Of a DNA stretch of 41,009 bases, positions 11,709-37,092 are shown one piece after another. The notes under the pieces are model-generated. The model was not told where the DNA came from and did no database searches. It saw only the letters and a list, made by a program, of their open reading frames with translations. The translations under genes and the position numbers were made by a program. Each line of letters begins with the position of its first letter. The first letter of the stretch is position 1. The stretch comes from a virus: IMG/VR virus record IMGVR_UViG_3300024939_000001, positions 1 through 41,009 of that record. The stretch is one strand, 5' to 3'.

Positions 11709-14165
11709 TTAGGCAAAGAAATACTCACTGTCTAATACAGTAGCTAAATCCAGTGAGCCATACTTAGGCATTGGCGGGATGTCTTTAATCAACTCCTCAC
11801 CTCCTGAGTTGTTGAGTTGGTAGATTATCTCCTCCCGGAATTTACCTAACACATCCTCAGAGTATTGATACACGAAGGCTTCCCTTAGAGTATCTGCAAG
11901 TAACCTAGTGTCACAGGCATGAACCCCATAGGAGTCATGAATCATAGAGAAACTATTGATACCCTTGGATTTACATAGAGCCACCGTCCGCATCATGTGT
12001 GCTGCATCACAGCTATGAACGAAGTTAGGAGAGATACCCGCAGATTGCTTACGTGAGTTAAGAGTCGAGCCTTGCTTGTTGTACTGTATGTTAGTTGCCT
12101 CCCCTGCTATGAAGACTCTTAAGGTTTCTGCAAGATTGTTCGTATAGAATTGACGTACAGGTAAACCTACGGGAGTAGTCCACACAACTGCGATGTCCAA
12201 CTTAGAGACAACCTTAGAGACATCTTGCAACCACTTCATAGCCTCCTCAGCAGCCACAACTACAGTGCTGATAGCTTGGAGATTACGGTCAGCTAGATAG
12301 TAAGCAGCTTTAGCGATGTCTACATCCTCACCTATGAACATAATCTCCCCCTCCTCTATCATGGTGTCCAATTCTTGAATCAACTGGTCACGCATACCAA
12401 AGGCTGTCACTGAGTAGGGTCTAGTCATCGTGTTACGCTTGGTTAACTTACGACCAATCGGTTTGTTTACATACTGTTCACCGTCACGATAGAGTGCAGA
12501 CTTCCATATAAGAGCTTCAAGGTGTCCGATAGCTGCATCCTCATCAATGAACCCTTGGACAACACTAGCGACTTCCTGATAGATGTCTGAAGGCTTCTCT
12601 GAGGGTACTAAATTGGTAGCACGTCCACCGCGTTCATCACGTAGCATCGCTGAGAAGTTCTGAAGACCATTACAAGAACCGTCTAGGGCTACTGCTATGC
12701 GACTTACGAAGGCTTCCCCTTGCATGGTGTACCCTAACCACTCGAAACAAGCTGCAAGGAACTGGAAGGGCTTGTCTGCAAGTAACCAAAAGCGATTACC
12801 CTCAACAGGTTTTAACGCTGAGTCAAGGATCGCTTGAGTATTCTCTTCAGCCCACTCGATACGCTTGTCAAAGTCTACCTTATCGTACCCAAAGGTATTA
12901 GCTAACTGAATCGCTAACCAAGCAGCCCCTTCAGAGCCTAGTGGTTTACCTTGGGAGAACTGTAAGAGTGCCTTACCGAAGTCATCAGACTGAGGATTAA
13001 CGAAGCCGGGTACAGCATAAGCTCTGCCTCTCCAATCCATTACGTGAGGGAAGTAGATAGCTTCCTCATCAATGAACTTCTCAGCTAACCATAGCTTCTG
13101 TGTCAGTGCTACTACCTTGCTACGGTTCTTGAAGTTCTCGTTATGAGTTGCTGCTGCCCTAGCCTTCCACTCTTTCAGTGCTTCAGGATTAGTGTCAATA
13201 TCAATAGGCTTCATAGGGATAGGCTTACCTTCACGTAAGGGCATCTTAGCGATTCCCCCTCCGGTGGTGTCCCACAGTGTACGCATGACATTGTAGATAG
13301 CCTTATTGATTGTCCAAGGGGTATCTTGCAGGGCGTTGATTGATTCATAGACGATAGGCATGTCTACCTCATCTAATTCAGCTAGATACTTCTTGTTACG
13401 TGTCTTCATTAAAGTTAAGGGAGTCTCAAGATACCCTCCGTCCTTCATAGTTGACCATGCTTTAGGCTTAGTGACCATCGGAAGGAATACCGGGGACAGT
13501 AAAGAACACGTTCTATTCTGCATAGCTAACCACACCTGAAGAGAATCTGTAGACTCCACATAGACAACTGTTTTGTTCTTACCTTCGACATGGGTGACTA
13601 ACTGGCAAAGGTTTAACTCTGTGACTAATTCAATCAGCTTAACCCCAATACGGATACGCACCTCATCAGGTAGTGTAGTGTTCTCAATTCCCGCTAACTT
13701 AGTCTTAGCTCCCATCAATACTTTCTTCTTATGCTGTGTATTAGCAGCGGTAGACTTAAGATTCCGTATGATTGCATCCATCAAGCGGGGAGCCTCTTTA
13801 CGAAACGCACGATAGTTAAGTTCATCCTCAAGTAACTTAGCGATTGCCTCAGCCATAGAAACCATACGTTCCTTACCTGAGATACCGTTAATGACTCTAC
13901 GCAATGTAAGGAAAGCTACCTCCTTGTGACCAATCATCTCAAGGTATCTTGCAGTAGAGCCTAAGCGTCTTGCTTGGCCTGACTTAGTGGACTCAGTGAA
14001 CTCCTTAAGTCTCTCTATCAGGGGTTGGAGGGAATGATTGATTAAGGCCATACCTACTACGTTCTCAGCTTGACCTTGCTTCTCTAGGTTCTTAAAGTAA
14101 CTTGCTACACCCATACTGCCCATCTCAGCTTCTAATGCTAACTGCTTATCTACTAGGGTACTCAT
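11709..14165 (-). CDS. T7-type single-subunit RNA polymerase
   Basis: 818 residues (T7: 883). Motif A DGSCNGLQNFSAMLRDE with catalytic Asp near residue 495, motif B with LTKRNTMTRPYSVTAFG (Lys, Tyr, Gly) near 575, and motif C MIHDSYGVH with catalytic Asp near 743; SPNFVHSCDAAHM is the conserved element before motif C. It transcribes the phage middle and late genes from its own promoters, for which the 34-bp repeats are candidates. The first copy of that repeat, a hairpin and a palindrome stand in the leader, so the polymerase could boost its own synthesis. Start ATG 14165 follows AGGAGAAATACT. Integrase and attP lie immediately upstream, as in some integrating marine T7-like phages. Confidence 0.98.
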   Translation of the reverse strand: MSTLVDKQLALEAEMGSMGVASYFKNLEKQGQAENVVGMALINHSLQPLIERLKEFTESTKSGQARRLGSTARYLEMIGHKEVAFLTLRRVINGISGKERMVSMAEAIAKLLEDELNYRAFRKEAPRLMDAIIRNLKSTAANTQHKKKVLMGAKTKLAGIENTTLPDEVRIRIGVKLIELVTELNLCQLVTHVEGKNKTVVYVESTDSLQVWLAMQNRTCSLLSPVFLPMVTKPKAWSTMKDGGYLETPLTLMKTRNKKYLAELDEVDMPIVYESINALQDTPWTINKAIYNVMRTLWDTTGGGIAKMPLREGKPIPMKPIDIDTNPEALKEWKARAAATHNENFKNRSKVVALTQKLWLAEKFIDEEAIYFPHVMDWRGRAYAVPGFVNPQSDDFGKALLQFSQGKPLGSEGAAWLAIQLANTFGYDKVDFDKRIEWAEENTQAILDSALKPVEGNRFWLLADKPFQFLAACFEWLGYTMQGEAFVSRIAVALDGSCNGLQNFSAMLRDERGGRATNLVPSEKPSDIYQEVASVVQGFIDEDAAIGHLEALIWKSALYRDGEQYVNKPIGRKLTKRNTMTRPYSVTAFGMRDQLIQELDTMIEEGEIMFIGEDVDIAKAAYYLADRNLQAISTVVVAAEEAMKWLQDVSKVVSKLDIAVVWTTPVGLPVRQFYTNNLAETLRVFIAGEATNIQYNKQGSTLNSRKQSAGISPNFVHSCDAAHMMRTVALCKSKGINSFSMIHDSYGVHACDTRLLADTLREAFVYQYSEDVLGKFREEIIYQLNNSGGEELIKDIPPMPKYGSLDLATVLDSEYFFA

Positions 14166-14221: not shown

Positions 14222-14256
14222 CCTGAAGACTTCTCTCTCAGGGAGGTGTCTTCAGG
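14222..14256 (-). promoter_or_regulatory. Stem-loop in the polymerase leader
   Basis: Perfect 9-bp inverted repeat (CCTGAAGAC and GTCTTCAGG) with a 17-nt loop, followed on the minus strand by GTTTCTATT. It lies between the candidate promoter at 14334 and the polymerase start. It may be an RNase III site, a weak terminator or an attenuator; the short U-run makes a full terminator unlikely. Confidence 0.6.
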
Positions 14257-14333: not shown

Positions 14334-14367
14334 TTAAGGTGTACACTTCAGCTCGTAAGTCATTGAT
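14334..14367 (-). promoter_or_regulatory. Candidate phage RNA polymerase promoter, copy 3 of 4
   Basis: Minus-strand copy with ATCAATGACTTAC, CTGAAG and TGTACACCTTA. Two extra partial copies of its upstream half (AATCACTTACA) lie just upstream near 14377-14387 and 14441-14451, giving three spaced TTAC boxes. It would direct autogenous transcription of the polymerase gene. Confidence 0.6.
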
Positions 14368-14469
14368 ATTTCTTGTAAGTGATTGTTTCTTAAAGGAAAC
14401 TATTTTCATGTCAAAGTCAAACTCCGGTCAAACTAAAATGTAAGTGATTGAATCGGGTGGAGAACTGCA

Positions 14470-14511
14470 AGATTTTAAGTCTCTTGTGTCTACCAATTTC
14501 ACCACCCGGGC
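14470..14511 (-). other. Putative attP: 42 bp matching the 5' half of a tRNA-Leu(UAA) gene
   Basis: Read on the minus strand from 14511, this starts GCCCGGGTGGTGAAATTGG, continues GTAGACACAAGAGA and includes the anticodon loop CTTAAAA (anticodon UAA). This is the acceptor 5' strand, D arm and anticodon arm of a bacterial tRNA-Leu(UAA); the match breaks in the 3' anticodon stem and no variable or T arm follows. A truncated tRNA next to a tyrosine integrase is the classic form of attP. A tRNA-Leu attachment core of similar length is known for the T7-like cyanophage P-SSP7. Confidence 0.85.
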
Positions 14512-14530: not shown

Positions 14531-15601
14531 TTACAAGGCTTGGATTTGAACTACTGTATCTCTACTGTTACCACTTTGACCTTCGTAAGACAAACTATAG
14601 TCAAAGTCTTTTACTTCATTTAGTGCACTTACAACATCTCTCAGGTGTGTATTGGATAACTGAGCGTATCTTAAGGTGGTCGAATAACTCTTATGTCCTA
14701 ACCACAATTGAACACGCTTTAAATCCATTCCTGAAGCTACCAATCTTGAGGCGCACGTATGTCTCAGACTGTGAATAACGAAAGTTTCATCGTCCTGATA
14801 CCCTAGGTGAATCCTAAAGTATTTCCAATAGCTTTCTACCATATCCGTAGTGTAAGGGAACGGCTTGATTAAACCCTTACGACTCTCTAGGACAGTCCGC
14901 ATGATTCTAGTCATAGGTTTGTGTAAGGTGTCCCCTGATTTAGTATCAACGAACTTAACTACACCATCCTTAAAATCTACATCGAACCATGTGAGCTTGA
15001 GTACCTCACCTAGACGATTAGCACTCGATAAGAGAAACTCAAAGAGTCCTACTTGTTCGGGGTACTTCTCAGAAAAGAAGCGCATCATACTGACTTCCTC
15101 AGCGTCGGTCAATACCCTGTGCCTACTTGGTGGTTCTTTTAGAGTTGCTATCTTAGGTACATGGGTCAGCTTCCCCCAATCTACGCATAAGTTCAATAGC
15201 TTCTTCAGGACAGCCATTTTACGATTAATAGTTGCTGGTGCGTTACCTTGCTTGGCTAACTCCTTAGAAACATCCTTGAGTACCTCAGCGTTTACCTTAG
15301 TGACATCTAAAGTCTTGTCTAAGAGAGGCTTCTTTCCTTCGGTCAATAAAGACCAATTCTGTTCAACCTTATAGGCATACTTGAGACCCTTCCAGTGAGC
15401 TAACATAGCATCTCTATAGGCTGTCTCAAGGTTATATGTTTTCTTAGTGAGTCCCCACGATCCCTTAAGCATCTCAGCCTCAGTCAGTGAGTGTAGCTTC
15501 TCAGCTAACTTCTTGTCCTTCGTTCGTGTTGACTTCCTGACCCTCTGACCATCAACGGTCAAGTCAATCTGCCATACACCAAAATCATTCTGTACCAGCA
15601 T
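14531..15601 (-). CDS. int: Tyrosine recombinase (integrase)
   Basis: 356 residues. Catalytic set visible: Arg near 195 (SSANRLGEVL), HSLRH near 276-280, LGHKS near 300, and nucleophile Tyr near 313 (TTLRYAQLS). The N-terminal part has an arm-binding-like strand start (GVWQIDLTVDGQRVRKSTRT) and a SAM-like core-binding domain (residues 60-150). The stop is 20 nt from the tRNA-derived attP. It overlaps the MarR gene end by 17 nt, so regulator and integrase are probably one transcript. It would integrate the genome into a host tRNA-Leu gene. Confidence 0.95.
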   Translation of the reverse strand: MLVQNDFGVWQIDLTVDGQRVRKSTRTKDKKLAEKLHSLTEAEMLKGSWGLTKKTYNLETAYRDAMLAHWKGLKYAYKVEQNWSLLTEGKKPLLDKTLDVTKVNAEVLKDVSKELAKQGNAPATINRKMAVLKKLLNLCVDWGKLTHVPKIATLKEPPSRHRVLTDAEEVSMMRFFSEKYPEQVGLFEFLLSSANRLGEVLKLTWFDVDFKDGVVKFVDTKSGDTLHKPMTRIMRTVLESRKGLIKPFPYTTDMVESYWKYFRIHLGYQDDETFVIHSLRHTCASRLVASGMDLKRVQLWLGHKSYSTTLRYAQLSNTHLRDVVSALNEVKDFDYSLSYEGQSGNSRDTVVQIQAL

Positions 15602-16001
15602 CGAGTATTCTCCTCATGTTCTTGTCTAAATACGTGGTAAGTTCTGTTACTACCTCTACGCCCTTCGGTGTGAGCGTTAATAAGACCCTCCTTCTATCGT
15701 TATAATCAACTAGAGACTTGATTAAATCCAAGCCTCCCTCTCCTCCCTTACCATCAGCTAGACGATAAAAATTACGTGATGCAGCAGCCTTAGAGATTCC
15801 TAGCTTTTGTCCAACACTAGATAAATCTGTAGGTTCTACCTGAGCAGCTACCTCTAACAAAAACATGACCGTCTGAGCTTCTACGTTTTCATGTAAGTGT
15901 TTCTGTATGATTCCCTGTATGCTAAAAATAGCTCCGGCTAACTTTCGTTGCTGTGCTGACAGTAATTTTGTATCTGTACCAGTTGATTTCGCGTTCATCA
16001 T
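15585..16001 (-). CDS. MarR-family transcriptional regulator
   Basis: 138 residues with the MarR winged helix: DLSSVGQKLGISKAAASRNFYRL as the helix-turn-helix (residues 75-100) and a wing YNDRRRVLLTLTPKGVEVVTEL (given by its key pieces DRRR and LTPKG). Dimerisation helices flank it. MarR proteins are dimeric repressors often released by small ligands. Two palindromes (16023-16039 and 16068-16081) lie directly upstream of its start and could be autoregulatory operators. Coupling to integrase suggests control of lysogeny; no classical CI/Cro pair is present. ATG 16001 follows AAAAAGGAATCTA. Confidence 0.9.
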   Translation of the reverse strand: MMNAKSTGTDTKLLSAQQRKLAGAIFSIQGIIQKHLHENVEAQTVMFLLEVAAQVEPTDLSSVGQKLGISKAAASRNFYRLADGKGGEGGLDLIKSLVDYNDRRRVLLTLTPKGVEVVTELTTYLDKNMRRILDAGTE

Positions 16002-16173: not shown

Positions 16174-16202
16174 ATTATGTAGTGATGATTGATTAAGGTC
16201 AA
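16174..16202 (-). promoter_or_regulatory. Sigma70-type promoter for marR-int
   Basis: Minus strand: -35 TTGACC (16202-16197), 17-bp spacer, -10 CATAAT (16179-16174). It matches host consensus at 5 of 6 in each box. It would allow transcription of marR and int by host polymerase independent of the early promoter, for example in a lysogen. Confidence 0.6.
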
Positions 16203-16203
16203 T

Positions 16204-16220
16204 CCCTTAAGAGACTGTCA
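16204..16220. repeat. 17-bp direct repeat, copy A
   Basis: The 17-mer CCCTTAAGAGACTGTCA occurs here, abutting the -35 box of the marR promoter, and again at 17998-18014 in the gap between two early genes. A shared regulator-binding site is possible. Confidence 0.6.
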
Positions 16221-36965: not shown

Positions 36966-37092
36966 GGAGAAGAGTGGGAATCGAACCCACGGAAGGCCAT
37001 CACATTGAGATTCTAAGAACTCTGTGACATACCCTCAGTAATGATGTATGTTATAAACATTACTTGCCTTAAGCCACTCAGCCATCTTCCCC
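36966..37092 (-). tRNA. tRNA-like element with long variable arm and abnormal anticodon arm
   Basis: On the minus strand: acceptor GGGGAAGA (37092-37085) pairs over 8 bp with TCTTCTCC (36973-36966); then TG, a class II D arm (GCTGAGTGGCTTAAGGC), and at the 3' side a perfect T arm, GTGGG-TTCGATT-CCCAC. Between them lie 75 nt, about 40 more than in normal Ser/Leu tRNAs: a stem AGTAATG/CATTACT closing a 14-nt loop where the anticodon should be, then a long variable-arm hairpin (TCACA/TGTGA, GAG/CTC, TTC/GAA). No CCA is encoded and no standard 7-nt anticodon loop can be drawn. It begins 6 nt after the scaffold stop and precedes the capsid leader. It may be a decayed tRNA, a tRNA with an insertion, or a tRNA mimic used as a processing signal. 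Confidence 0.6.

Follow-up and report, generated by a model that had tools for sequence, protein, structure and literature searches.

We analysed a 41,009-nucleotide stretch of viral DNA (IMGVR_UViG_3300024939_000001, positions 1 to 41,009, one strand, 5' to 3'; hereafter the window) and propose that a 42-bp tRNA half within it is the attP core of a T7-like temperate phage of Methylophilaceae, whose integrase would recombine this core with the host tRNA-Leu(UAA) gene and thereby rebuild the tRNA. We place the probability of this reading at about 90%. Because the window carries an exact 50-bp terminal repeat, it is probably a complete, circularised genome of about 40,959 bp. The T7 type claimed in the initial annotation is confirmed, and the phage is known here as Autographiviridae-like from its genes: a single-subunit T7-type RNA polymerase (RNAP; 11709..14165, minus strand; PF00940, 8e-116; PHROG 414, 1e-241) is accompanied by matches to primase/helicase, DNA polymerase, exonuclease, SSB, terminase, MCP, scaffold and connector. 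The T7-type replication, packaging and head genes are collinear, every one on the minus strand. A DNA similarity search against catalogued phages gave a single match, to a piece of tRNA-Leu in an Acinetobacter phage.

Read on the minus strand from 14511, the window has GCCCGGGTGGTGAAATTGGTAGACACAAGAGACTTAAAATCT, followed by TGCAG. The interval 14470..14511 is identical to the 5' half of tRNA-Leu(UAA), beginning at tRNA position 1 and reaching into the 3' strand of the anticodon stem, as had been claimed when the DNA was first read. A search for bacterial tRNA-Leu(UAA) genes that match over the full length found exact copies: the 42-mer is present in at least 120 stretches of bacterial or archaeal genome contigs and, among the matches listed, nearly all contexts are complete tRNA-Leu(UAA) genes, which excludes a chance match. 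ARAGORN found no complete tRNA in the window, and a complete phage-borne tRNA was rejected as a candidate on this ground. On the minus strand the order is integrase, a 19-bp gap (20 bp in the initial annotation), the tRNA half and then the RNAP gene. The integrase is a complete tyrosine integrase ORF of 356 aa, as first described (14531..15601, minus strand; PF00589, 6e-21; PHROG 1 'integrase'), and its catalytic residues R196, K221, H277, R280, H303 and Y312 are invariant among relatives. Two integrase relatives, 61-68% identical, were found by protein search in IMG/VR. In the locus L126 (G178) an integrase 35% identical to that of the window is directly followed by an intact tRNA-Leu(UAG); no T7-type RNAP was found in the G178 genome.

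The 42-mer occurs in nine IMG/VR stretches. Free attP sites are found in L122 (contig G001, 38 kb), L123, L136 and L138, all with the order regulator, integrase, tRNA half and RNAP, and their RNAPs are 71-78% identical to that of the window. In every free-attP relative the 42 nt are unchanged beside the integrase gene and both flanks diverge. This conservation speaks against the view that the half is an inert relic of a past integration, or a captured fragment, and that the integrase uses another site. A phage tRNA fragment can indeed remain after imprecise excision, as was proposed for the complete tRNA-Leu of LUZ100 (PMC10134795). The junctions of relatives described below nevertheless break exactly at the core, and we regard a relic as extremely improbable. 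The DNA polymerase gene of G001 is interrupted and that of the window is not; at the break in G001 a partial match to a group I intron, scoring below the gathering threshold, spans L134:1-125 and the end of L133.

Junctions between relatives and host DNA of both types were found, and they support the earlier proposal of a tRNA-derived attP with its attB in the host tRNA-Leu(UAA) gene. The integrase end is represented by L093 (Methylotenera sp. 24-45-7), in which a 58% identical integrase directly adjoins an intact tRNA-Leu(UAA) at 2797-2882, as anticipated for a prophage of this integrase family. Along 2.6 kb, L093 matches the viral contig L123 at 96% identity, and this match stops where the core ends and the host 3' half begins; the other junction of this prophage was not found within that MAG. 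Two loci represent the opposite end. In L139, 83 bp of host DNA are followed by the tRNA half, the phage arm and RNAP, and this flank is identical at 83 of 83 positions to the flank upstream of tRNA-Leu in another MAG, L098. The strongest case is G074 (Methylophilaceae), where 6,931 bp of host DNA run up to tRNA position 41 and phage DNA follows. Across 5.76 kb the host DNA of G074 aligns at 77% identity with an unoccupied Methylophilus site (L015), with the alignment ending at position 41, and the phage part of G074, about 10 kb long, has an RNAP 83% identical to that of the window and 80% nucleotide identity over 3 kb. The gene ahead of the tRNA is homologous in G074 and L015; we take its protein to be TolC-like. 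Comparison of the junctions shows that the 3' end of the core varies with the phage between positions 41 and 44. The 3 kb behind the rebuilt tRNA-Leu in L093 (3059-5824) lack synteny with other tRNA-Leu flanks and contain a 345-aa ORF that resembles a plasmid replication initiator; this segment may be another mobile element at that tRNA.

All three junctions come from metagenome assemblies or draft contigs, and the shared core of 41-44 bp is of a length that an assembler could in principle bridge. The junctions might then be chimeras of phage and host DNA, a possibility to which the damaged tRNA-Leu of L098, which is of the same host type as L139, lends something, as that damage could itself be an assembly error. 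We consider chimeras very unlikely, given three separate records with two junction types in the predicted orientation, in one of which, G074, a host segment of 6.9 kb continues into about 10 kb of phage DNA. The prophages found belong to relatives, with none of the window phage itself, and no single contig spanning both ends of a tRNA-Leu(UAA) integration was found.

The tRNA half had also been expected to name the host, and this did not hold. The 42 nt are identical in Methylophilaceae, Rhodocyclaceae (Dechloromonas/Azonexus), Marinobacter, Methylophaga and Oxalobacter, and the 42-mer was therefore rejected as a unique host label. The half alone cannot name the host because several families share it, but the junctions of relatives can, and they point to Methylophilaceae. 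The G+C content agrees with this assignment, at 44.7% in the window, 36-48% in Methylophilaceae loci and about 57% in Dechloromonas.

In the integration that we propose, the integrase would recombine attP with the host tRNA-Leu(UAA) gene, with the crossover most likely in the anticodon loop, as the limits of the core and general knowledge of tRNA-targeting tyrosine integrases suggest. Because the phage carries the 5' half, an intact tRNA-Leu would be rebuilt at the integrase end of the prophage, and at the opposite end the host tRNA promoter and the host 5' half would be joined to the leader of the phage RNAP. Among the relatives, an intact restored tRNA-Leu lies behind the phage integrase in L093, and the host tRNA promoter faces the phage RNAP in G074 and L139. 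By extension the window phage itself would integrate at tRNA-Leu(UAA), and its lysogens would presumably be stable.

This geometry has a predicted consequence for the host tRNA. Ten of the 11 Methylophilaceae genomes checked hold one full-length close match to tRNA-Leu(UAA) each, and the further full-length matches in genomes of the family, at 72-83%, look like other leucine isoacceptors. The eleventh genome, G123, to which L098 belongs, has only the first 43 nt. In this MAG (HGW-Betaproteobacteria-22; L098 / G123:C9:8795-8837) the gene lacks the variable and T arms directly after the 43-nt core, which makes it a candidate deletion scar, or an assembly error at a mixed occupied and empty site. 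Since tRNA-Leu(UAA) is single-copy and integration separates the host promoter from the intact tRNA, expression of the rebuilt tRNA is expected from the phage side, from the regulator-integrase operon. This source is a prediction, as a consensus scan for promoters immediately in front of the rebuilt tRNA did no better than on shuffled sequences.

The exchange of promoters may even serve the phage, although this idea is tentative and on balance doubtful. The host tRNA-Leu promoter would read into RNAP through the leftover half, and the only tRNA-Leu(UAA) of the cell would depend on transcription of the phage regulator-integrase operon. The junction sequences display the physical arrangement itself, and the coupling of lysogeny to an essential tRNA is our proposal. 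If it were true, the cell could not silence the lysogeny operon, and the growth rate of the host would feed the lytic polymerase.

Several further elements lie between the core and RNAP. The motif CACCCG (14454..14459, minus strand; inverted repeat I4) is complementary to CGGGTG (C4-G9) of the tRNA half and can on this basis pair with the acceptor strand of the tRNA, including that of the half left over ahead of RNAP after integration; its spacing from the core is nearly constant across L139, G074 and all free-attP relatives. The P' arm (14356..14450, minus strand; direct repeat D2) contains three CAAT(C/G)ACTTA repeats, at 14450-14441, 14385-14376 and 14365-14356. Three of the five copies in the genome thus fall within 95 bp beside the core, and the repeats are conserved in relatives; they are candidate integrase arm sites or operator sites for the regulator. 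Further downstream, the RNAP leader has a hairpin with the arms CCTGAAGAC and GTCTTCAGG (14222..14256, minus strand). Near the corresponding position relatives also have hairpins, which differ in sequence; in five of the seven genomes their stems comprise 14-16 pairs, and L136 is the exception in the perfect-stem scan. Because these hairpins have no U run they were not called terminators, and a scan of the phage strand found no terminator between the tRNA half and RNAP. Elsewhere in the window, a tRNA-like structure lies between the scaffold and major capsid genes (36966-37091, minus strand; Rfam tRNA, 30.8 bits, above the gathering score). Its acceptor, D and T arms are good, but the anticodon stem is 7 bp long and closes a loop of 14 nt, and the variable arm is long. 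It received no ARAGORN call, has no match in the phage collection and is not kept at that place in G001; it is a candidate decayed tRNA-Ser-like gene or RNA-processing element.

The gene overlapping the start of the integrase gene (15585..16001, minus strand) encodes a MarR-like winged-helix protein, a putative lysogeny regulator with 30% identity to LUZ100 gp10. Its assignment rests on PHROG 9665, because Pfam has no match and the best NCBIfam and PDB matches are MarR-type but weak. PHROG 9665 also holds the regulators of LUZ100, RHEph01, CRP-171 and S-SRP02, which are annotated as MarR in those records. Ahead of this gene lies a probable promoter of the regulator-integrase operon (16174..16204, minus strand; TTGACC-17-CATAAT), with the operator-like palindrome GATTGACCTTAATCAATC (16187-16204) over its -35 element. 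The consensus scan for this promoter was not by itself above chance. The 18-bp palindrome is identical in the window and five relatives, and it is unique in the window save for one copy with three mismatches. In LUZ100 the regulator and integrase genes are co-transcribed, and the MarR protein was proposed to repress RNAP (PMC10134795). By analogy, the MarR-like protein of the window may repress lytic genes.

The presence of this regulator bears on whether integration belongs to a lysogenic cycle at all. For T7-like cyanophages, PCR has demonstrated integration, but no stable lysogens could be obtained (PMC8776855). The half, the tRNA and the gene order of the window are those of P-SSP7, a phage of this type, and RNAP relatives turned up in just 2 of the 187 Methylophilaceae genomes examined. 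The window phage could accordingly be essentially lytic and integrate only transiently. We think this possible but improbable, since a PHROG 9665 regulator is joined to the integrase gene, whereas no repressor homologues were found in T7-like cyanophages (PMC8776855), and since prophage junctions occur in genome assemblies and a complete distant relative resides in a Methylovorus genome.

That relative, a T7-like prophage of about 40.3 kb, occupies 1,168,909-1,209,302 of a 1,617,787-bp contig of Methylovorus sp. MM2. It is flanked by 60-bp direct repeats, with RNAP and integrase genes at opposite ends. The host family is that proposed for the window phage, and the RNAP and integrase are 44% and 36% identical to those of the window. 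The att site differs: the repeat corresponds to the 3' part of tRNA-Leu(UAG), starting ahead of the anticodon loop and extending to CCA, whereas the window carries the 5' half of tRNA-Leu(UAA). Because its att is the 3' part, the Methylovorus tRNA keeps its own promoter, and related phages thus use the anticodon region of tRNA-Leu and carry opposite halves. The 5'-half arrangement displaces the promoter of a single-copy tRNA and therefore yields a clear prediction on tRNA expression in lysogens.

Integrating T7-like phages with a similar gene order had been described to us by the initial annotation as known from marine lineages. They are not confined to such lineages, as rhizobiophages, LUZ100, BB8 and freshwater phages carry the same module. 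The closest parallel is the Prochlorococcus phage P-SSP7, which has GGGAGTGTGGCGGAATTGGTAGACGCGCCGGACTTAAAA between integrase and RNAP genes, the same half in the same order as in the window. In 11 T7-like cyanophages the 39-bp site corresponds to the first half of tRNA-Leu; experiments have shown that S-TIP37 and P-SSP7 insert at the host tRNA-Leu, and S-TIP37 requires both the integrase and attP to do so (PMC8776855). The window shares with P-SSP7 a tyrosine integrase ahead of RNAP and, between them, an attP formed by the first half of tRNA-Leu; integration at tRNA-Leu is seen in the junction sequences of its relatives. The cyanophages differ in the phylum of their hosts and in having no reported MarR-like regulator or other repressor and no stable lysogens, in contrast to the PHROG 9665 regulator of the window and the prophage junctions of its relatives in genomes.

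MarR-integrase-RNAP modules are likewise already known, from LUZ100, rhizobiophages and roseophages. As in the window, the integrase gene lies just ahead of RNAP in LUZ100, RHEph01/RHEph21, CRP-171/CRP-361, S-SRP02, Bordetella BB8 and Limnohabitans YIMV22061, and a MarR-type regulator precedes it in LUZ100, RHEph01/21, CRP-171/361 and S-SRP02. Unlike the window, LUZ100, RHEph01/21 and the Limnohabitans phage have an entire tRNA close by, encoded on the other strand. A 5'-half tRNA was not observed behind the integrase in these LUZ100-type, temperate-like Autographiviridae, and their integrases are only 25-31% identical to that of the window. For LUZ100, no lysogens could be confirmed among the tested strains (PMC10134795). 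The arrangement also differs from tRNA-dependent lysogeny, in which a phage-encoded tRNA is needed for lysogeny (PMC10865867) and a complete phage tRNA takes the place of the host tRNA that integration disrupts: a complete tRNA-Leu is absent from the window, and in L093 integration restores the tRNA.

The arrangement of integrase, tRNA-Leu half and RNAP is thus known from marine cyanophages, and here it is joined by a putative repressor and recognisable prophages. T7-like integration at tRNA-Leu(UAA) is extended from cyanobacteria to the methylotrophic Methylophilaceae, with natural junction sequences on both sides that support actual integration. In the window phage, the 5'-half attP of the cyanophage type occurs together with a MarR-integrase module like that of other temperate T7-like phages, and it therefore offers a system for asking why such cyanophages integrate without forming lysogens.
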